64,000 nt of DNA. Source: Opitutia bacterium. Lineage in GTDB: Bacteria; Verrucomicrobiota; Verrucomicrobiia; Opitutales; UBA953. How positions within the stretch are numbered: position 1 is the first letter of the stretch; each line of letters begins with the position of its first letter. Where the stretch lies: positions 124,001 through 188,000 of the forward strand of contig CANGFP010000002.1 of assembly GCA_947453335.1 (NCBI GenBank), read 5' to 3'. The notes under the pieces were generated by a model, which saw only the letters and a program-made list of their open reading frames with translations, was not told the origin of the DNA and searched no databases. This document shows, one piece after another, positions 140 through 18,332 of this stretch. Made by a program: the position numbers and the translations under genes.

Positions 140-157
140 GCCAAGTTGACCTCTCCC

Positions 158-766
158 ATGGCTCACGACGACGAAGACGAGGACGAGAAGACCCCCGCCG
201 CCCCCAAGGACGCCTCGCCCAGCGCGATGCTCATCCAGAAGAAGTTCCTGGAGCAGCGTAAGCTCTTCCTCTGGGGCGCCGTGGACGACGCCTCCGCCAA
301 GGACATCGTCGAGAAGCTCCTCTACCTGGAGACCTCCGACCCGGGCAAGGACATCACCTTCTACATCAACACCCCGGGCGGTTCGATCACCGCGGGCATG
401 GCCGTCTACGACACCATCCGCCTGATCAGCTCGCCGGTGACCGTCGTCGTCACCGGCATGGCCGCTTCGATGGGCTCGATCCTCCTCCAGGCCCCCAAGG
501 GCAAGGGCAAGCGCCTCGTCTTCCCCCATGCCCGCGTGATGATCCACCAGCCCCTCATCATGGGACGCATCCAGGCTCCGGCCGTCGACATCCATATCCA
601 AGCCCTGGAGATGGAACGCCTCCGCACCGAGCTGAACGAGATCCTCGCGAAGGCCTCGAAGCAGAAGCTCGAGAAGGTCGTCAAGGACACCGACCGCGAC
701 TTCTACATGACCGCCGAGGAGGCCATCGAGTATGGCCTCGCCGACGAGATCGTGAAGAAGCTCTGA
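158..766 (+). CDS. clpP: ATP-dependent Clp protease proteolytic subunit
   Basis: ClpP family serine protease (S14), 202 aa, the cytoplasmic barrel that degrades proteins fed by a Clp ATPase. The triad is visible: Ser104 in GMAASMGS, His130 in RVMIHQP and Asp181 in DTDRDFY. The oxyanion-loop motif INTPGGSITAG is at 70-80. The N-terminus has an unusual acidic stretch (DDEDEDE) where typical ClpP has a short axial loop or propeptide. ATG 158 is preferred over the in-frame TTG 146. Neither has a Shine-Dalgarno sequence. No clpX follows; instead a rhomboid gene starts 10 nt downstream. Two further ClpP-fold proteins lie at 14.4-17.1 kb, but those are exported. Confidence 0.92.
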   Translation: MAHDDEDEDEKTPAAPKDASPSAMLIQKKFLEQRKLFLWGAVDDASAKDIVEKLLYLETSDPGKDITFYINTPGGSITAGMAVYDTIRLISSPVTVVVTGMAASMGSILLQAPKGKGKRLVFPHARVMIHQPLIMGRIQAPAVDIHIQALEMERLRTELNEILAKASKQKLEKVVKDTDRDFYMTAEEAIEYGLADEIVKKL

Positions 767-776
767 CCGCAGCACC

Positions 777-1694
777 ATGGGCATCGGCGACCGGGCCTAC
801 ATGCGCGCCAGCACGCCGGAACGGCGCCAGCTGACAGCGACGGCTTGGACGCTCCTGGTGCTGCTGGCGTTCGGCATCCTCGGCCTGATCGACTGGAGCA
901 CCCGCTTCAAGGGCTACAGCTTCCTCGAACCCCTTGAGCTCAGCAACGCCGCTCCCCAGGCGTGGCAATGGCTGACCTACGGCCTGGTGCATGGCGGGGT
1001 CTGGCACTTCTTCATGAACGCTTTCGGGCTGTGGTGGCTGGGCAGCCTCGTGGAGGCGTCCTACGGCCGCAGAGCCTACCTGCAGACGCTGCTTGCGGGC
1101 ACCCTCCTCGGCGCCGTCGTCTGGTGGCTCACCGGCGCCGGCGGCCCGCGCGACCACCAGCACCTGCTCGGCATCTCCGGCGGCGTCTACGCGTTGATGG
1201 TCGTCGCCCTGCTCGACCGCCTCGACGACCTCGTCACCCTGCTCATCCTGTTCTTCCCGGTGAACGTCAAGGCCCGCTGGCTCCTGATCTTCGCCACGGG
1301 TGTCGCGGCTTTGGGCTGGGTCTTCCTCGAACTCCCCGGAAGGCACGCCTGGACGTTCTGGAACCCCGCCTGGGCGATGAACACCGAGGAAGCCATCGCG
1401 CATTCGGCCCACCTCGGAGGCCTGGCCGCCGGCTGGGCGATGTGGCGCTGGCTGGGACGGACAATTCCGGCGGCCGGCGGCGCTTATGTGGTGGAGTCCC
1501 AGACGATGTCCGCGCCCGCCACCGAAGAATCCGACGCCGAAGCCCCGGAGCGCCCGACGCGCGGCGGCCTGAGCCCCGCCCAAGCCCGCGCCGAGATGGA
1601 CCGCCTGCTGGACAAGATCTCCGCCAAGGGTTTCGGCTCGCTCACCGAAGCCGAGAAACGTAGGCTCGAGGAACTCAGCGCCCGCCTCCGCTGA
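777..1694 (+). CDS. Rhomboid family intramembrane serine protease
   Basis: A 305-aa polytopic membrane protein of the S54 family, which cleaves transmembrane segments inside the bilayer. Diagnostic motifs are HGGVWHFFMN (72-81), GISGG with nucleophile Ser134, and SAHLGGLAAGW with catalytic His212. About six hydrophobic segments span residues 23-225. A soluble C-terminal tail of about 80 residues ends in a charged helix (LTEAEKRRLEELSARL), common in bacterial rhomboids of this type. It starts 10 nt after clpP and ends 10 nt before tsp, which suggests one transcript. The substrate is unknown. Confidence 0.9.
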   Translation: MGIGDRAYMRASTPERRQLTATAWTLLVLLAFGILGLIDWSTRFKGYSFLEPLELSNAAPQAWQWLTYGLVHGGVWHFFMNAFGLWWLGSLVEASYGRRAYLQTLLAGTLLGAVVWWLTGAGGPRDHQHLLGISGGVYALMVVALLDRLDDLVTLLILFFPVNVKARWLLIFATGVAALGWVFLELPGRHAWTFWNPAWAMNTEEAIAHSAHLGGLAAGWAMWRWLGRTIPAAGGAYVVESQTMSAPATEESDAEAPERPTRGGLSPAQARAEMDRLLDKISAKGFGSLTEAEKRRLEELSARLR

Positions 1695-1704
1695 AACCCC
1701 ATTT

Positions 1705-3903
1705 ATGCGACTCCTCACCCCGTCCCTGCTGGTCCTCGCGTCGGCCCTCGGCTTCGCCCAGGCGCCGAACTACACGACCACGGAGCTCATGCAGAACGAG
1801 ACGCGCGCGACGGTCGCGCTCCTCGAGAAGCTGCACATCAGCAAGAAGGAGATGGCCTCGGTCGACACCGGCGACGTGCTCAAGACCTACTTCGAGAGCC
1901 TCGACCCGGGGAAGATGTACTTCACGCAGAAGGAGGTGGACGAGTTCACGGCCCGCTACGCCAAGAGCCTCGACCTGTATCTCCAGCGGGGCAACCTGAC
2001 CCCGGCGTTCGAGATCTACAAGGCCTTCAAGGCCAAGGTCGGCCTCCGGACCGACGAAGCCTTGGCCGCCCTCAACGGCCCCGTCGACCTCAACCAGCCC
2101 GGCGTCTTCCCCACGGACCGCCGCAAGGGCGCCTGGCCGGCCTCCGACGCCGAAGCCGATGACCTCTGGGCCCGCCGCCTCCGTCTCGACATCCTGTCCG
2201 AGCTCCTCGGCGAGGACAAGCAGGCCACCAAGGACGCCCCCAAGGCCAAACCGACCCATGAGACGACGGCCCCCGTCATCACCCCGGAGAAGGTGAAGGA
2301 AGCCATCGCCCGCCTCAAGAAGCGCTACGAGAAGGTGCGCGTCTACCTCACCTTCGACCCCCAGGAGGTCGAGGAGCTCTTCCTCAACGCCTACTCGACG
2401 CAGTACGACCCGCACTCGATCTTCTTCTCCCAGCAGTCGCTGGAGGAGTTCGAGATCGCGATGCGCAACTCCCTCTGCGGCATCGGCGCCACGCTCGCCG
2501 ACGAGGACGGCTACTGCACGATCAAGGAGATCCTGCCGGGCGGCCCGCTCGACCTATCCAACCAGGTGAAGCCCGGCGACCGCATCATCGCGGTGGCCCA
2601 AGGCGACGCCGGCGAGATGGACGACATCGTCGGCCTCCGCCTGCAGAAGGCCATCAGCCGCATCCGCGGCAAGCAAGGCACGACCGTCAAGCTCCTCGTC
2701 GACACGGCCGGCGCCCGCAAGGTCGTCGCCCTCAAGCGCGACCAGATCAAACTCGTCGGCCAGATGGCCTCGGCCCGCTGCTTCGAGGTCCCCAACGGCA
2801 ACGGCACCGTCCATGTCGGGGTCATCGACCTCCCGGCCTTCTACGGCAAGAACCCCGATGGCACCGGCTCCAGCCCGACCAAGGACGTCGAACAGCTCAT
2901 CGCCAAGCTCAAGAAGCTCGGAATCAAGGCGCTCATCATGGACCTGCGCAAGAACGGCGGCGGCCTCCTGACCGAAGCCGTCGAACTCTCCGGTCTCTTC
3001 ATCCCTAAGGGTTCCGTGCTCCAGGTCCGCGACAGCCAAGGCCGCATCGAGGACTACCGCGACGAGGACGAGAAGGTCGCCTGGAACGGGCCGCTCATCG
3101 TGCTCACGTCCAAGCTCTCGGCTTCGGCCTCGGAGATCTTCTGCGGCGCCATGAAGGACCACCATCGCGCCTTGGTCGTCGGCGACACGACCACCCACGG
3201 CAAAGGCTCGGTCCAGAACATCATCGAGCTCAACCGCGTCTTCCGCGGCCTCGACGTGAAGTCGGCCGTGAAGGTGACCATCCAGAAGTGGTACGCCCCC
3301 AGCGGCTCCTCCATCCAGCTCAAGGGCGTCCCGGCCGACATCGTCGTGCCGTCGGTCTTCTCCGTGCTGCCGGTCGCCGAATCCGACCTCGACCGTCCGC
3401 TGGCTTGGGACTCCATCCCCCCTTCCCTCACCAAGCCCGACGAAGGCGACTGGCTGAAGGCCAAGCTTTCGGACGGGCTCGTCAAGCAGCTCGCCGAGGC
3501 CTCCGCGAAGCGCCAGGCCGAGCTGCCCGAGTTCCTGACGCTGACCCACTCGATCGAATGGACCAAGAGCCGCCAGGCCCGCAAGGAAGTCTCGCTCTCG
3601 CTGGAGCAGCGTCGGCAGGAGCGCAGCGACGACCTCGCCTTCCGCGAGCAGGTGCGCAAGGAACTGACGCAGTTCTCGGCCAAGGCCGCGAAGACGACCG
3701 ACGTCAAGCTGGACGCGGCCCTGGAGCAGGAGAAGAAGGAAGGCCAGGAGTGGATCAACAAGTCGAAGCGCATGTCGCGCGTCCGCGACCCGCTCGAGGA
3801 CGAGGATTGGCCCGACTACGACATCCAGCTCCAGGAGGCGGTGCGCATCGCCGCCGACTGGACGAAGACGCTCGCGACCCAACCGGCCACGGCCGCCAAG
3901 TAA
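1705..3903 (+). CDS. prc: Tail-specific (C-terminal processing) protease, S41 family
   Basis: A 732-aa periplasmic Ser/Lys protease of the Tsp/Prc type. Order of parts: signal peptide (about 1-19, ending GFAQA), TSP N-terminal helical domain with the DPGKMYF motif near 67-73, PDZ domain (about 255-345), S41 catalytic core, and a charged C-terminal domain. The nucleophile is predicted as Ser474 in the SASASE motif and the general base as Lys500 in GDTTTHGKGSVQ. The Ser-Lys spacing is one residue longer than in E. coli Tsp as I recall it, because the loop reads GDTTTHGKG where E. coli has GEPTFGKG. It is the last gene of the protease run and is followed by a strong terminator. Confidence 0.92.
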   Translation: MRLLTPSLLVLASALGFAQAPNYTTTELMQNETRATVALLEKLHISKKEMASVDTGDVLKTYFESLDPGKMYFTQKEVDEFTARYAKSLDLYLQRGNLTPAFEIYKAFKAKVGLRTDEALAALNGPVDLNQPGVFPTDRRKGAWPASDAEADDLWARRLRLDILSELLGEDKQATKDAPKAKPTHETTAPVITPEKVKEAIARLKKRYEKVRVYLTFDPQEVEELFLNAYSTQYDPHSIFFSQQSLEEFEIAMRNSLCGIGATLADEDGYCTIKEILPGGPLDLSNQVKPGDRIIAVAQGDAGEMDDIVGLRLQKAISRIRGKQGTTVKLLVDTAGARKVVALKRDQIKLVGQMASARCFEVPNGNGTVHVGVIDLPAFYGKNPDGTGSSPTKDVEQLIAKLKKLGIKALIMDLRKNGGGLLTEAVELSGLFIPKGSVLQVRDSQGRIEDYRDEDEKVAWNGPLIVLTSKLSASASEIFCGAMKDHHRALVVGDTTTHGKGSVQNIIELNRVFRGLDVKSAVKVTIQKWYAPSGSSIQLKGVPADIVVPSVFSVLPVAESDLDRPLAWDSIPPSLTKPDEGDWLKAKLSDGLVKQLAEASAKRQAELPEFLTLTHSIEWTKSRQARKEVSLSLEQRRQERSDDLAFREQVRKELTQFSAKAAKTTDVKLDAALEQEKKEGQEWINKSKRMSRVRDPLEDEDWPDYDIQLQEAVRIAADWTKTLATQPATAAK

Positions 3904-12752: not shown

Positions 12753-14321
12753 TTAGCGGAGCGAGTAGCCGAGCACGGCGGTCTCGCCGGGCTTGAGGGT
12801 GAGCGTGAGGCCGTCGGCGGAAGCGACGGGCGCGGCGCCGGAGACGGCGCGGAGGACGAGGCGCGGGCCTACCTCGAAGGCGCCGGCCTTGGCCGTCACC
12901 GCGAGGCCACGGGCCAGGACGATGGTCACCGGCTGCTCGCCGGAAGCCGTCACGGTGCGCGTAAGGCTGCGTTCGGCGTCCGGCTTCCAGGCGTCGGTGA
13001 AGGCGAAGCCTTCGCCGGCGACCTTGAAGGTCGGGTTGCCGTTCTTGTCGAGCTGGTAGCCCTTGAACTCGGCGGCGATGGCGACGGCCTTGAAGGTGCT
13101 GTCCTTGCCCGCGTCCTTGTTCACCTGGTAGGCGACGAGGCGGCCGCTCGGGGCGGTCGGGCCGGACACCGCGAAGGAATCGGAAAGCTTGACGACGCCT
13201 TCGCCGGCGGGCGGCTCGTTGCCGGCGCCACGGTCGGTCCAGTGGTGCGAGCCATCCATGAACCTGCCGGTCCAAAGGAGTTCGACGGCGCAGTCGTCGG
13301 CGCTGTAGGCGAGGTTGGTCGCGTTCGGGAAACCAAAGCCGATGGCGCGCGGCGTGGTGCCGGCGATGAAGTTGCGGTAGACCGCGGCGTAGCCGTCCTT
13401 CGCCTCGATCGGGATGGGGGTGCGCTTGACGGCGGCCTTGCCGGCGCCCCCGGCCTTGGCGTTGGAGAGCCACCGGTAGTCCTTGTCCTTCGGGCCCTTG
13501 TAGCCGAGATGGATCACCTGCTGGCCCGCGACCTGCACGTACTCGAGGCGGAAGGGGACCGCGCCGGCCTTGAGCAGGACGGGGACCTCCTTCTTGCGGC
13601 CGCCGATCGGGGCGATGCCCTTCACCTCGGCGATGCGCTCGCCGTTGACGTAGAGCGCGCCGAAGTCGTCGCAGTCGAAGTAGAAGGTGTACTTGCCCTC
13701 CTCCTTGGCCTCGAACTTCGCCTCCCAGACCATCGCGAAGTTCTTGTTCAGGCCCGACTGCTCGGGGCTGACGACGCCGGTGTTCTCATCCTCGATCTGC
13801 GCGGGCTTGAGCTTGGCGAAATCGGGGAGCTCCTTCCACTCGCCCTTGTAGAGCGTGCCGACAAGGTTGACCAAGGCGGTCTTCGGCAACGGGAAGGGGT
13901 GGTCCTTGAGGAGCTCGGCGGCGGTCCAAGGCGTCGCGCGGTTGGCGGTCGCGGCGCGGACGGACTTCACGAGGTCGGGCGTGAGGGCCCCCGCGTTGCC
14001 GGCGAAGGTCTGGCGGACATAGGTGAGGGCCGCGGCGATCTTCTCGTCGCTGAGGACGGCGCCCTGCGGCGGCATGTCGATGTTGTAGGCCTTGCCGGCG
14101 ACCTCGACGGGTCCGGTGAGGCCGTTGAGGACGATCTTGATGGAGCGTTCGGCCTGGCCCTTGGGCCAATCGCTGCCGACCAGCGGCGGCAAGCCGTTGA
14201 GGCCCTTGCCGTCGGGGCCGTGACAGGCCACGCAGAGGGAGTTGTAGACCTGCGCGCCGTCTTCGGCGGCGAAGGCTGCGGAGGAATAGGCCGCGAGGGC
14301 CAGGAGCGCGGGGAATCGCAT
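12753..14321 (-). CDS. Cytochrome c with PA14 domain
   Basis: A 522-aa exported protein. After a signal peptide (1-19), a monohaem c-type domain carries CVACH (30-34) and a candidate axial Met in NIDMPPQG (near 85). About residues 155-275 match a PA14-type beta-barrel (YTFYFDCDDFGALYVNGERI), a carbohydrate-binding fold. The C-terminal 200 residues are beta-rich and unassigned. The combination suggests electron acceptance next to a carbohydrate-binding module, fitting a periplasmic oxidation of sugars with the neighbouring propeller protein. This role is inferred from domain pairing and context only. Confidence 0.78.
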   Translation of the reverse strand: MRFPALLALAAYSSAAFAAEDGAQVYNSLCVACHGPDGKGLNGLPPLVGSDWPKGQAERSIKIVLNGLTGPVEVAGKAYNIDMPPQGAVLSDEKIAAALTYVRQTFAGNAGALTPDLVKSVRAATANRATPWTAAELLKDHPFPLPKTALVNLVGTLYKGEWKELPDFAKLKPAQIEDENTGVVSPEQSGLNKNFAMVWEAKFEAKEEGKYTFYFDCDDFGALYVNGERIAEVKGIAPIGGRKKEVPVLLKAGAVPFRLEYVQVAGQQVIHLGYKGPKDKDYRWLSNAKAGGAGKAAVKRTPIPIEAKDGYAAVYRNFIAGTTPRAIGFGFPNATNLAYSADDCAVELLWTGRFMDGSHHWTDRGAGNEPPAGEGVVKLSDSFAVSGPTAPSGRLVAYQVNKDAGKDSTFKAVAIAAEFKGYQLDKNGNPTFKVAGEGFAFTDAWKPDAERSLTRTVTASGEQPVTIVLARGLAVTAKAGAFEVGPRLVLRAVSGAAPVASADGLTLTLKPGETAVLGYSLR

Positions 14322-14366: not shown

Positions 14367-14396
14367 AAAAGGCCGCGGCGGAAGCCGCGGCCTTTT
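14367..14396 (-). terminator. Terminator after the first exported ClpP-like gene
   Basis: Stem GGCCGCGGC/GCCGCGGCC (14371-14379 with 14384-14392), GGAA loop, with A and T runs on both sides. By position it ends the minus-strand gene 14415-15806 and separates it from the cytochrome c operon. Confidence 0.9.
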
Positions 14397-14414: not shown

Positions 14415-15806
14415 TCAGCGGACCCGGTATTGGCCGCGCGGATCGTAGATCCACCAGGCGTCGAACGGATTCGAAAGCGCCGGGAGCTCGAAGTACGCGC
14501 GCCCTTTCTCGTCGGTCTTCTGGACCACGCCGGAAGCCTCGGCCGCGGCGGTGCGGGGCAGCGGCGACCCCTGGACGGACGGCGCCGGGGGCAGGAGGTC
14601 GAGCACGGCGGTCTCCTCGATGCGTTCGACCACGTGGTCGATCCATTTCAACTCCTTGGCCTTCTCGCCGAAGGCCTGCCAGTCGCCGGTGGAGTCGTTG
14701 GCGTACATCTGCTTCACGAACTCGGGGAGCGTGAGGCCCATCTTCTTCGCCACCGGCGTGCCGAGGCGTTCGAACCAGCGGTTGGTGAACTCGACCTGCT
14801 CCTTGAGGACGGTCATGTTGCCGCGCGCGGAGTTGGAGACCTGGTGGTGCAGGATGACGGTGTTAGGGTAGCAGTAGGAGCGCTCGGCGAGCGTCGCGAT
14901 CACGGCCGTCATCGAGGCGGCGAAGCCCTTCACGACGACGAAGACCGGAGCCTTCGAGGCCGCCATGGCCTTCTGGATCTGGTAGCCGGCGGCGACGGAA
15001 CCGCCGGGGCTGTTGTCGACGACGATGAAGATCGGGAATTCCGGGGACTGGTTGTTGTAGAAGCTGATGCGCTGGCAGACGTAGTCGGCCAGGCCTTCGG
15101 TCACGGCGCCGTTGAAGGCGATGCGGCGGTCGCTGATGTAGAGGGTGCCGTCGACGAGGGGTTCCTTCAGGTACTTCGGCTTGGCCTTGGTGGCGACCTT
15201 GCGGGCCTCCTCCTCCTTCTGGAAGCGGGCGATCTCGTTCGTCAGGCGGGCGATGGTGTTCGCGGCCTCGAGCTGCAGTTGCTTGGCCTCGGCCTCCAGT
15301 TCGCGGATCTTGTTGTTCCGCTCGGACAGCCGGGCCGTCGAACGGGCCGCCTCCAGCGCGGCCTGGCGTTCGAGCTTGGCGCGTTCGTCCTCGAGCGCGG
15401 CGGCTTCCGCGGCGGCCTTCGCGAGGCGCAGGGCGCGCTCGGCGGCGAGCTTGGCGGTCTCGGCGTTCAGCGGGGCGAGCTCCTCGGTGCGCTTCGCCTC
15501 GGCCAGCGCGACCTCGGCGTCGATGCGCGCCTTCTCGGCGCGCATGCGGTCGGCTTCCTTCAGCGCGGCCTTCTGCTCGGGACTGAGTTCCTCGCGGCTG
15601 ATGCCGGGGCCGGGCGCGACGGTGGTCGGACCTGGCTGCGCGGTCGGCAAGGAGCCGCCCGCGGGGGCCGCTCCCGCGGCGCCGGCGTTGGCGGACGCCG
15701 GCGCGGCGGCGGCCGGGACGACGACGACGCGGCGGGTCTGCGCAAGCGCAGGCGCGGTGACCAAGCTGGCCAACGCGAGGAGACGGAAGACGGAGGGGAG
15801 GTTCAT
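14415..15806 (-). CDS. Exported ClpP-like serine protease with coiled coil
   Basis: A 463-aa protein with a signal peptide (1-22), an Ala/Pro/Gly-rich linker (25-70), a long Ala/Glu/Lys/Arg coiled coil (about 75-205), then a ClpP-fold domain. The triad appears intact: Ser298 in GFAASMTA, His321 in VILHHQ, Asp375 in STGDWQ; the PGGSVAAGYQ motif is at 267-276. The C-terminus ends with WWIYDPRGQYRVR, a motif shared with the neighbouring paralogue. Bacterial ClpP is cytoplasmic, so an exported version cannot use a Clp ATPase. It probably acts alone or in a complex in the periplasm or at the membrane. Substrate unknown. Confidence 0.78.
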   Translation of the reverse strand: MNLPSVFRLLALASLVTAPALAQTRRVVVVPAAAAPASANAGAAGAAPAGGSLPTAQPGPTTVAPGPGISREELSPEQKAALKEADRMRAEKARIDAEVALAEAKRTEELAPLNAETAKLAAERALRLAKAAAEAAALEDERAKLERQAALEAARSTARLSERNNKIRELEAEAKQLQLEAANTIARLTNEIARFQKEEEARKVATKAKPKYLKEPLVDGTLYISDRRIAFNGAVTEGLADYVCQRISFYNNQSPEFPIFIVVDNSPGGSVAAGYQIQKAMAASKAPVFVVVKGFAASMTAVIATLAERSYCYPNTVILHHQVSNSARGNMTVLKEQVEFTNRWFERLGTPVAKKMGLTLPEFVKQMYANDSTGDWQAFGEKAKELKWIDHVVERIEETAVLDLLPPAPSVQGSPLPRTAAAEASGVVQKTDEKGRAYFELPALSNPFDAWWIYDPRGQYRVR

Positions 15807-15831
15807 GGTGAAGGGAATGGAAGGGAACGGT

Positions 15832-17052
15832 TCAGCGCAGGATGTATTCCACGGTGGGGTCGTACATCCACCAGAGGTCGCAGGGCGCGGCCGGCGGCAG
15901 CTCCTGCTGGACCTTGCCTTGCGCGGACAGCGGATTGGTGTCGCCGAAACCGGTCGTCGGCAACGGCGCCGGGGCCGGGGCGGCCGCGCCGGAGGTGACG
16001 CCGTCCTCGTTCATGCGCTCGACGACGTCCGTCACCCACTTGCGGCGGCCGGCCTCGTCGCCGTGCACCTTCCAATCCCCGGTGACGGTGGCCTTGTACA
16101 TGTCGGCGATGAAGTCCTCGAGCGGCACGCCGATGCGCTTGGCGACCTTGATGAAGATGCGTTCGCACCAGACCTTGCTCCACTTGAGCTGCTCCTGCAT
16201 CTGCGTCATGTTGCCGCTGACACCCGTGGAGGCCTGGTGGTGCAGCACGATGGTCTGCGGGTAGACGAAGGAGCGCTGCGCGAGCGTGGTGACAATCGCG
16301 GCCATCGAGGCGCAGTAGCCCTTGACGACGACGAACACAGGGGCCTTCGAGGCTTCCATGGCCTGGAGGATCATGTAGCCCGACATCACCGAACCGCCCG
16401 GCGAACGGTCGATGACGATGAAGATCGGGGCTTCCGGGTCCTGCGCGTTGAAGAACGCGATGCGGTCGCAGACCGAACGGGCGAGCGCGTCGTTGACGAC
16501 GCCGTTGAAGGGGATGCGGCGGTCGCTGATGTGCAGGACGCCGTCGATGAGCGGATCCTTGGGGTAGGTCATCTTCGCCTGGCTGACCTGCTCGGAGGTC
16601 TTCTGCTGGAGGCGCGCGATGGCGGCGACGGAGGCCACCTTGGCGTATTCGAGCGTGACCTGCGCGAGCGCAAGCTTGGCGTCGGCCTCGAGTTCCGCGC
16701 GGGCGCGTTCCTTGTCGGCGGCGCCGGCGGTGCCACGGGCGTAGGCGACGGAGGCCTCCAGGCCAAGGCGGGCGCGTTCGGCTTCCTGCGCCGCCGCGGC
16801 GGCGTCGGCGCGGGCGGACCGCACCTGCGCCTCGGCTTCGAGCTTGCGCAGTTCGAGGCTGCCGGGAAGTTCGGCCAAACGGCGCTTGGCGGCGGCCAGG
16901 TCCAGGCGCGCCCGGATGACCTCGGCGTCCACCTCGGCCTGGATGGTCTCGGGAGATTTCCGGATGGACGACTGCTGCGCGGGGAGCGCGACGGCCAGGA
17001 ACAAAAGGGCAAGGGCCAGGCGGAGCATGGGAGGGGTAGTCCGTTTTGTCAT
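15832..17052 (-). CDS. Exported ClpP-like serine protease with coiled coil (paralogue)
   Basis: A 406-aa paralogue of the gene at 14415, 25 nt upstream of it and probably in the same operon. Signal peptide about 1-27 (LALALLFLAVALPAQQ), coiled coil about 33-160, ClpP-like domain about 165-350. Ser249 in GYCASMAA, His272 in IVLHHQ and a TGDW motif preserve the triad; SPGGSVMSGY matches the oxyanion loop. The tail WWMYDPTVEYILR mirrors the paralogue. ATG 17052 is chosen because AAGGGA lies 9 nt upstream, one of few clear Shine-Dalgarno sequences here, and because it places the signal peptide at the N-terminus. The linker is much shorter than in the paralogue. Confidence 0.76.
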   Translation of the reverse strand: MTKRTTPPMLRLALALLFLAVALPAQQSSIRKSPETIQAEVDAEVIRARLDLAAAKRRLAELPGSLELRKLEAEAQVRSARADAAAAAQEAERARLGLEASVAYARGTAGAADKERARAELEADAKLALAQVTLEYAKVASVAAIARLQQKTSEQVSQAKMTYPKDPLIDGVLHISDRRIPFNGVVNDALARSVCDRIAFFNAQDPEAPIFIVIDRSPGGSVMSGYMILQAMEASKAPVFVVVKGYCASMAAIVTTLAQRSFVYPQTIVLHHQASTGVSGNMTQMQEQLKWSKVWCERIFIKVAKRIGVPLEDFIADMYKATVTGDWKVHGDEAGRRKWVTDVVERMNEDGVTSGAAAPAPAPLPTTGFGDTNPLSAQGKVQQELPPAAPCDLWWMYDPTVEYILR

Positions 17053-17096
17053 ATAAATGGTTCCCTTGAAGCCCATTTTTCGCAAATCTGCCCGCC

Positions 17097-18002
17097 ATGG
17101 ACGCCGATGCCCCCATCCGCCTGCGCAACCGCCACACCGGCGCCGAGGAGATCGAGAAGGTCTACGGCGAGGCTTGGCTCAAGCGCATCTACGGCAACCC
17201 CTTGGGCCAGCTGACGCTCCACGCCGCGGCCAAACGCTCGTTCGTCTCCCGTTTCTACGGTTGGTCCGCCGATCGGCCCGCCAGCGCCAAACGCGTGAAA
17301 CCCTTCATTCGGGACTTCGGCCTCGATACCGCCGAGTTCGCCGACCCGGACCCGGATTCCTACAAGACCTTCAATGAGTTCTTCTACCGGAAGCTGAAGC
17401 CCTCCGCGCGACCCGTCGACCCGCGGCCCGAGATGGCCGTGCTGCCCGCCGACGGCCGGCACCTGGGCTTCCCCGACGCCAGCCGCGTGCGCGGCATCTT
17501 CGCGAAGGGCCAGACGTTCGACATCCCCGCGCTCGTCGGCGACCGCGCGCTGGGCGAACTTTACCGTAATGGGACCGTGGTCTGCTCGCGGCTTTGCCCC
17601 GTCGACTACCATCGCTTCCACTTCCCGGTCGCCGGCACGCCCGGCGAGGCGGTGCTCACCAACGGCTGGCTCTACTCGGTCAACCCGATCGCGCTCCGCC
17701 GCAACGTCGCCTACCTCTGGGAAAACAAGCGCCAGCGCGTCACGCTCGACGCCGGCCCGTTCGGCACCGTGACCATCGTGGCGATCGGCGCCACGAACGT
17801 CGGCACCATCGTCGAGACCTACCGCCCCGGCGTCGCCGTGGCGAAGGGCGACGAAAAGGGCTACTTCCGCTTCGGCGGCTCCTTCCTCGCCACGCTGTTC
17901 GAACCCGGCCGCATCCGCCTGGAGGACGACCTCGCGCAAGCCGGCGAATCCGGCGTCGAGCTCTACGCCAAGGTCGGGTCTCCGCTCGGACGATTGGCCT
18001 AA
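17097..18002 (+). CDS. psd: Phosphatidylserine decarboxylase proenzyme
   Basis: A 301-aa pyruvoyl-dependent enzyme that converts phosphatidylserine to phosphatidylethanolamine at the inner membrane. Seen: PADGRHLGF (118-125), the HRFHFPVAG motif near 172-180, and FGGSF, where self-cleavage between Gly261 and Ser262 would create the pyruvoyl group on the alpha chain. The residue after the Ser is Phe rather than the common Thr or Ser. It is transcribed divergently from the exported ClpP-like genes, with only 44 bp between start codons, so their promoters must overlap. Confidence 0.9.
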   Translation: MDADAPIRLRNRHTGAEEIEKVYGEAWLKRIYGNPLGQLTLHAAAKRSFVSRFYGWSADRPASAKRVKPFIRDFGLDTAEFADPDPDSYKTFNEFFYRKLKPSARPVDPRPEMAVLPADGRHLGFPDASRVRGIFAKGQTFDIPALVGDRALGELYRNGTVVCSRLCPVDYHRFHFPVAGTPGEAVLTNGWLYSVNPIALRRNVAYLWENKRQRVTLDAGPFGTVTIVAIGATNVGTIVETYRPGVAVAKGDEKGYFRFGGSFLATLFEPGRIRLEDDLAQAGESGVELYAKVGSPLGRLA

Positions 18003-18061: not shown

Positions 18062-18142
18062 GCTCGGGTGGTGGAATGGCAGACACACCAGATTTAGGTT
18101 CTGGCGCCGCAAGGTGTGCGGGTTCGACCCCCGCCCCGAGCA
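18062..18142 (+). tRNA. tRNA-Leu (anticodon TAG)
   Basis: Acceptor stem GCTCGGG/CCCGAGC (18062-18068 with 18135-18141) and discriminator A18142. The anticodon stem CCAGA/TCTGG encloses the loop TTTAGGT with anticodon TAG (18095-18097), reading CUN leucine codons. A variable arm and the T-arm GGTTCGACCC are present, as expected for a class II tRNA. The CCA end is not fully encoded (the discriminator is followed by CCC). Confidence 0.95.
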
Positions 18143-18332
18143 CCCTGTTCTTCACGATAGATCCGCGCCATGGCCGGATAGCGTACCGTCGCCCCACCGG
18201 GAGGAAAGCCCGCTTCCGCGGTCCCAAGGCGCGCCATCAGCAGGTCGCGAGCACCCCGCCCTACCCTTATAGGTTCCGCCTAACGGTTCCTCCACTCTTG
18301 CCCCGGCCCAAGGTAAGGTTCAATCTTGGGTC
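18143..18332. other. Intergenic region after tRNA-Leu, no gene seen
   Basis: 190 bp between the tRNA and the HAD gene, the longest gene-free stretch in the window. I see no convincing hairpin-plus-T terminator, open frame or RNA-family signature. It presumably holds the promoter for the HAD-Rrf2 pair. Confidence 0.4.

Follow-up and report, generated by a model that had tools for sequence, protein, structure and literature searches.

ClpP is the textbook protease chamber, and it has little activity without a cytosolic AAA+ unfoldase. The window analysed here, a stretch of 64,000 nucleotides from a freshwater Opitutia bacterium of the order Opitutales (Verrucomicrobiota), contains two neighbouring genes for ClpP-like proteins with predicted export signals. 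The locus raises the question of how a ClpP-type protease could work in a compartment that has no Clp ATPase.

Two tandem genes encode ClpP-like proteins with predicted export signals

A first-pass annotation of the window had described a tandem pair of paralogous ClpP-like genes, whose products carry export signals and share a C-terminal WW-YDP motif. Both open reading frames were confirmed, and both start with ATG; an alternative in-frame TTG for P0002 is located at 17085. The two proteins are about 46% identical, and the gap from P0002 to P0001 is 25 bp.

15832–17052, minus strand: upstream gene P0002, putatively exported ClpP-like protein of 406 aa (ORF, Pfam, alignment, AlphaFold2)
14415–15806, minus strand: downstream gene P0001, putatively exported ClpP-like protein of 463 aa (ORF, Pfam, alignment, AlphaFold2)
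14367–14396, minus strand: intrinsic terminator-like hairpin with a 13-pair stem and a T tract, 3' of P0001

Shuffles of the hairpin region contain 2.8 such sites on average, and the assignment as a terminator is based on its position just past the stop codon and its 13-pair stem rather than on the site count. With the hairpin 3' of P0001, the two genes appear to form a closed unit. Past the hairpin, the minus strand continues with a gene for a cytochrome c/PA14 protein (12753–14321).

On the other side of the pair, a phosphatidylserine decarboxylase gene (17097–18002, plus strand) is divergently oriented, with its start 44 bp away. This adjacency is kept in the genus of the window and in two sister genera. 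A canonical ClpP2-type gene is located at 146–763 (plus strand), directly upstream of a gene for a rhomboid protease with a DUF6576 domain (777–1691, plus strand). The same genome also encodes a canonical ClpP1 on another contig, besides ClpP2 and the exported pair.

Domain architecture and predicted structure

P0001 and P0002 have the same domain order: a Sec-type hydrophobic N-terminus, a helix, a ClpP domain, a low-complexity linker, and a C-terminal tail. The stretch that follows the N-terminus is charged and Ala-rich, with few Pro or Gly residues.

16978–17052, minus strand: P0002 predicted signal peptide region, residues 1–25, MTKRTTPPMLRLALALLFLAVALPA (sequence)
15738–15806, minus strand: P0001 predicted signal peptide region, residues 1–23, MNLPSVFRLLALASLVTAPALAQ (sequence)
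16585–16953, minus strand: P0002 predicted long helix, residues about 34–156, no clear heptad signal (AlphaFold2)
15198–15581, minus strand: P0001 predicted long helix, heptad-patterned, residues about 76–203 (AlphaFold2, periodicity)
16015–16533, minus strand: P0002 ClpP domain, triad S249, H272, and D326, approximate limits (Pfam, alignments)
14622–15143, minus strand: P0001 ClpP domain, triad S298, H321, and D375, approximate limits (Pfam, alignments)
15835–15888, minus strand: P0002 C-terminal tail, APCDLWWMYDPTVEYILR (sequence)
14418–14471, minus strand: P0001 C-terminal tail, NPFDAWWIYDPRGQYRVR (sequence, AlphaFold2)

AlphaFold2 models were built on an alignment of 50 relatives. In each model a single helix (128 residues in P0001, 123 residues in P0002) is followed by a ClpP fold. 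The pLDDT of the ClpP core is mostly above 90 in both models, and the linker is poorly defined. The tail is also predicted to be folded, with pLDDT of 86–89 in P0001 and of 82–86 in P0002, where the last residues are lower. Foldseek searches against the PDB retrieved ClpP structures of many species, with best E-values of 6.8e-16 and 3.9e-14 for the two models and target TM-scores mostly of 0.8–0.89.

Long coiled coils had been assigned to both proteins. The long helix is predicted in both, and the heptad pattern is present in P0001 and absent in P0002. Specifically, the hydrophobicity repeat along the helix is 3.52–3.54 residues in P0001 and in the family average, close to the 3.5 residues of a heptad coiled coil, and the family-average periodicity power is 2.1 compared with at most 1.35 in 100 shuffles. 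Analysis of hydrophobicity periodicity gave no heptad peak for the P0002 helix. Of the two window proteins, a coiled coil is supported by sequence periodicity for the P0001 helix only. The helix ends about 24 residues ahead of the first core strand, at the site of the pore loop of E. coli ClpP. At 1.5 Å per residue, the predicted 128-residue helix would be about 19 nm long, which is of the order of the periplasm.

The WW-YDP tail is present in both proteins and is conserved across the family described below. The reading of the tail as a separate module was rejected, as only P0001 and P0002 carry it within the genome of the window (assembly 63% complete).

The pair belongs to the ClpP (S14) superfamily

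P0001 and P0002 match Pfam CLP_protease with 75.8 and 75.6 bits (cut-off 20.2; E-values 5.2e-21 and 6e-21), as do 25 of the 25 family members scanned. Scores for the ClpP equivalog model TIGR00493 are 48.9 and 56.4 bits against a cut-off of 308.6, which the canonical ClpP2 of the genome also fails to reach (196). In the phylogenetic tree, members of the exported family form a single clade with support of 100/99, whose stem is 3.3 changes per column long; ClpP1, ClpP2, E. coli ClpP, and phage ClpP branch elsewhere. The separate clade indicates that the exported pair did not arise by recent duplication of the canonical ClpP1 or ClpP2 of this genome. The profile match, the triad, and the predicted fold make the pair a branch of the ClpP (S14) superfamily, outside the ATP-dependent ClpP group.

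An NfeD-type or SppA-like placement had been considered from the outset; ClpP (S14) scores over its cut-off, and NfeD1b, SDH, and SppA score under theirs. Specifically, Pfam NfeD1b_N gives 25.7 bits against 40 for P0001 and no match for P0002, and no transmembrane or OB region follows the ClpP domain, the models ending in the linker and the short tail. The SppA (S49) profile gives 21.3 and 18.6 bits against 155, with no Pfam S49 match. The NCBIfam model of phage head maturation proteases likewise scores under its cut-off (53.7 bits against 120). A phage or plasmid origin was rejected: the full architecture is absent from 50,697 phage and 72,556 plasmid records, where matches are confined to the ClpP domain, at about 30% identity. 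Two further ClpP-domain proteins, L238 (genome G263, 383-residue frame) and L239 (genome G349, 434-residue frame), form long branches beside the family and are possibly phage head-maturation proteases.

The active site is kept and ATPase-related residues are changed

E. coli ClpP, with the sequence of PDB 1TYF, was used as the alignment reference. Both window proteins align to its S97, H122, and D171, so the intact Ser-His-Asp triad noticed at first reading is retained on proper alignment. Equivalents of the three residues and of Gly67-Gly68 occur in all 50 aligned relatives, and the triad is intact in 158 of the 160 distinct family proteins. The remaining two have G/E/Q and G/S/E at the three positions, and each adjoins an intact copy. 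The joint loss of all three residues suggests that they have a single shared purpose. A dead copy beside an intact one would fit working triads together with a ClpR-like partner, and the pairing recalls ClpP/ClpR cores, for which the chloroplast CLPPR core is our comparison (PMC6508832). The triad-less copies are located at L065:65–1462 and L059:3009–4328; the L065 copy also has a lipobox.

The roles of the hydrophobic sites, axial N-terminal loops, oligomerisation sensor, and QxT motif of ClpP have been described (PMC9035409). In the ATPase docking pocket, Tyr62 is replaced by Val and Met92 by Lys in 50 of 50 aligned relatives, Phe82 is replaced by Ser, Ala, Thr, or Gly (50/50), and Leu48 is kept in none of the 50, its place being taken by Asn, Ala, Tyr, and others. 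The sensor residue Arg170 is Gly or Ala (50/50), and a change of Gln131 to Asn (50/50) turns the ring-stacking QxT motif into NxT. Pocket residues also vary in canonical ClpPs, as in the ClpP2 of this genome with its Thr at position 92 and Leu at position 82, and the pocket argument therefore depends chiefly on Tyr62, on Leu48, and on the Lys at position 92. This Lys and the Asp of the tail are conserved like the active site, in the dead copies as well. The conserved changes match the loss of an ATPase partner. A cytosolic Clp ATPase had been considered unsuited to an exported pair, and the docking pocket, being changed as well, points the same way.

The family recurs in Verrucomicrobiota

The search of other genomes that the first-pass annotation had suggested found the architecture, tail included, in 160 distinct proteins, so it extends beyond this genome, and such recurrence argues that it is not a product of chance. 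In the genus of the window, a protein search was positive in 22 of 24 other genomes, usually with a tandem pair; the two negative genomes are 74% and 82% complete. The same search found one further relative, in another family. A profile search was positive in 26 of 223 genomes of the order and in 33 of 388 genomes drawn from the phylum. The tandem pair is the rule in the window's family of Opitutales, with gaps mostly of 9–45 bp, and other Verrucomicrobiota mostly have a single copy. Separate duplications are found in two genomes of the same class, in tandem in G481 and apart in G409.

For a GTDB scan, taxon names were taken from the best 80 of 368 stretches. Among these 80 are Opitutae (UBA953-type freshwater bacteria, Puniceicoccales, gut Opitutales including Candidatus Spyradosoma, and Opitutaceae), Verrucomicrobiaceae, and Haloferula. 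One carrier, Haloferula sp. BvORR071, is an isolate. The sole member from outside Verrucomicrobiota among the best 80 of 368 is on a 6.9 kb Phycisphaerales MAG contig (L179); its protein nests within the Verrucomicrobiota branch of the tree, and its presence there is a case of transfer or misbinning.

Literature searches on exported, periplasmic, or Verrucomicrobial ClpP, with subscription papers mostly outside their coverage, found no description of such proteins. Provisionally, the exported stalked ClpP family is undescribed.

Export signals and gene neighbours

Signal peptides were judged by sequence composition rather than with a trained predictor. A hydrophobic N-terminal segment, as in P0001 and P0002, is present in 144 of the 154 scored family proteins, in line with the signal peptides first proposed; of the remaining ten, several are truncated at a contig end or carry an ordinary signal peptide that the rule missed. 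In the gut-genus pairs, the downstream gene encodes a clear lipobox (LMFAGC, LLLGGC, LVLSGC, or VTLAGC), and the upstream gene, where complete, encodes an ordinary signal peptide with no lipobox. The reverse, a lipobox upstream only, was never seen in these pairs. A further group, with the N-terminus MKTPSS...ACLACAS, fits the lipobox rule, doubtfully. P0001 and P0002 have no lipobox.

In relatives from Verrucomicrobiales, the gene directly upstream of the exported ClpP gene encodes an unnamed protein that probably has two transmembrane segments and whose extracytoplasmic domain is about 200 aa long.

L184:9121–10005 and L177:6924–7799, also in L171, L175, L185, L186, and L188: two-transmembrane neighbour, no Pfam match

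This protein was not found in relatives from the genus or order of the window, in a search set that contained no positive control. No neighbour is common to the whole phylum; other families show heme genes, a helicase, or the two-transmembrane protein. The idea that a conserved neighbour might point to the substrate was rejected, as the neighbours differ between families of the phylum.

Proposed mechanism and alternatives

We consider it somewhat better than an even chance that the pair forms a ClpP-type envelope peptidase that works without ATP, is possibly hetero-oligomeric, and bears helices above its pore. Both proteins would be exported by Sec to the periplasm, where their ClpP domains would form a ring, probably one that mixes the two paralogues or a stack of their rings, and the Ser-His-Asp sites would cut peptides or unfolded segments within the chamber. 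In the models, the long N-terminal helix emerges from the ClpP core at the position of the axial pore loops of canonical ClpP, so a ring would be expected to bear helices around its pore. Gathered above the pore, the helices would set the distance to the membrane and restrict entry to short or unfolded chains, and would thereby stand in for the Clp ATPase. The WW-YDP tail may be a structural or docking element that packs against the ClpP core or a neighbour.

In the family of the window, the tandem pairs, the dead-beside-live copies, and the one-sided lipobox suggest that two paralogues possibly share one assembly. Relatives outside this family mostly have a single copy, and their function therefore does not require two subunits. 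Lipidation signals are seen in relatives only, and self-assembly and membrane tethering, both proposed earlier for the window proteins, are properties that P0001 and P0002 may have. The presence of canonical ClpP1 and ClpP2 in the genome besides the pair counts for the proposal. Some points count against it. Deprived of its ATPase, cytosolic ClpP degrades hardly anything larger than small peptides; the changed ring-stacking residues could mean that a double ring does not form; and the lack of heptad periodicity in P0002 weakens a stalk made of a simple helical bundle. The fullest version of the model, a self-compartmentalised, ATP-free ClpP machine of the envelope, whose helices replace the unfoldase and which in some lineages has two subunits, one of them lipid-anchored, is put forward tentatively, at a little under even confidence.

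The main rival explanation is a site-specific envelope processing protease with an SppA- or NfeD-like role, positioned on a partner by its stalk and tail and acting on signal-peptide remnants or on one particular membrane protein. Non-cytosolic ClpP-fold proteases such as SppA and NfeD1b act on membrane proteins or peptides, which favours this explanation, and its best hint is the two-transmembrane protein gene directly upstream in several Verrucomicrobiales genera. However, the search of relatives from the genus and order of the window did not find that neighbour, and no neighbour is kept across the phylum. The family also has the ClpP Ser-His-Asp triad rather than the Ser-Lys dyad of SppA and NfeD1b, and the genome of the window has its own SppA. 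We regard a processing protease as rather unlikely.

The conservation of the tail Asp and of the Lys at 92 to the same degree as the active site, even in both dead copies, together with the changed ring-stacking residues, would instead suit a structural or chaperone-like envelope scaffold of a ClpP ring and long helices, for which proteolysis is secondary. Such a scaffold is quite improbable, given that the triad is whole in 158/160 proteins, that the Gly-Gly oxyanion motif is kept in the aligned proteins, and that both dead copies accompany a live one. The ClpP-like fold and triad could also mean that P0001 and P0002 are ordinary ClpP subunits working with cytosolic Clp ATPases, their hydrophobic N-terminal stretch not being a signal peptide. 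Against this stand the Sec-type N-termini of the family, some with a lipobox, the helix in place of the N-terminal pore loops, the changed docking-pocket residues, and the separate canonical ClpP1 and ClpP2 of the genome, and we give it hardly any weight.

Comparison with known ClpP-fold systems

The proposed envelope peptidase resembles cytosolic ClpP (S14) in its fold (target TM-score up to 0.89), triad, Gly-Gly oxyanion motif, and handle helix. Unlike cytosolic ClpP, the family of the window is predicted to be exported, has a helix of 120–130 residues for the pore loops and a WW-YDP tail, carries a one-residue insertion before SPGG, has a changed ATPase pocket, sensor Arg, and QxT motif, and forms a separate long-stem clade. 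As in the mixed ClpP/ClpR and ClpP1P2 cores of cyanobacteria, chloroplasts, and Mycobacterium, the paralogues are encoded together, and in two genomes a catalytically dead copy is located beside a live one. The window pair, known from genes and models, differs from these cores in its export signals, in its stalk, and in the lack of a Clp ATPase in the compartment, and both of its copies look active.

NfeD1b is also a ClpP-fold membrane protease outside the cytosol, and its SPFH/stomatin partners supply coiled coils. The two are encoded in NfeD1b-SPFH operons (PMC2636767). The family of the window, in contrast, keeps the triad His and Asp and shows no SPFH neighbour. SppA (S49) is a membrane-anchored ClpP-fold oligomer that works outside the cytosol without ATP; it uses a Ser-Lys dyad, unlike the window family, and is encoded separately in the window's genome. 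The ClpP-like head maturation proteases of phages likewise use the ClpP fold without an ATPase, but the proteins of the window belong to a chromosomal type that is kept throughout a bacterial family.

The family is of interest because its conserved changes match the loss of an ATPase partner and because it recurs across the phylum; its function is one that we infer. If correct, the proposed envelope peptidase would show how the ClpP chamber can be rewired for ATP-free work, and would be an unrecognised proteolysis system for Verrucomicrobiota, whose envelope biology is poorly known.

Other features of the window

ARAGORN reports a 77-base tRNA-Leu at 2029–2105 (minus strand), inside a long plus-strand ORF. 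This call is probably false, being short for a tRNA-Leu. A normal tRNA-Leu is located at 18062–18144 (plus strand).
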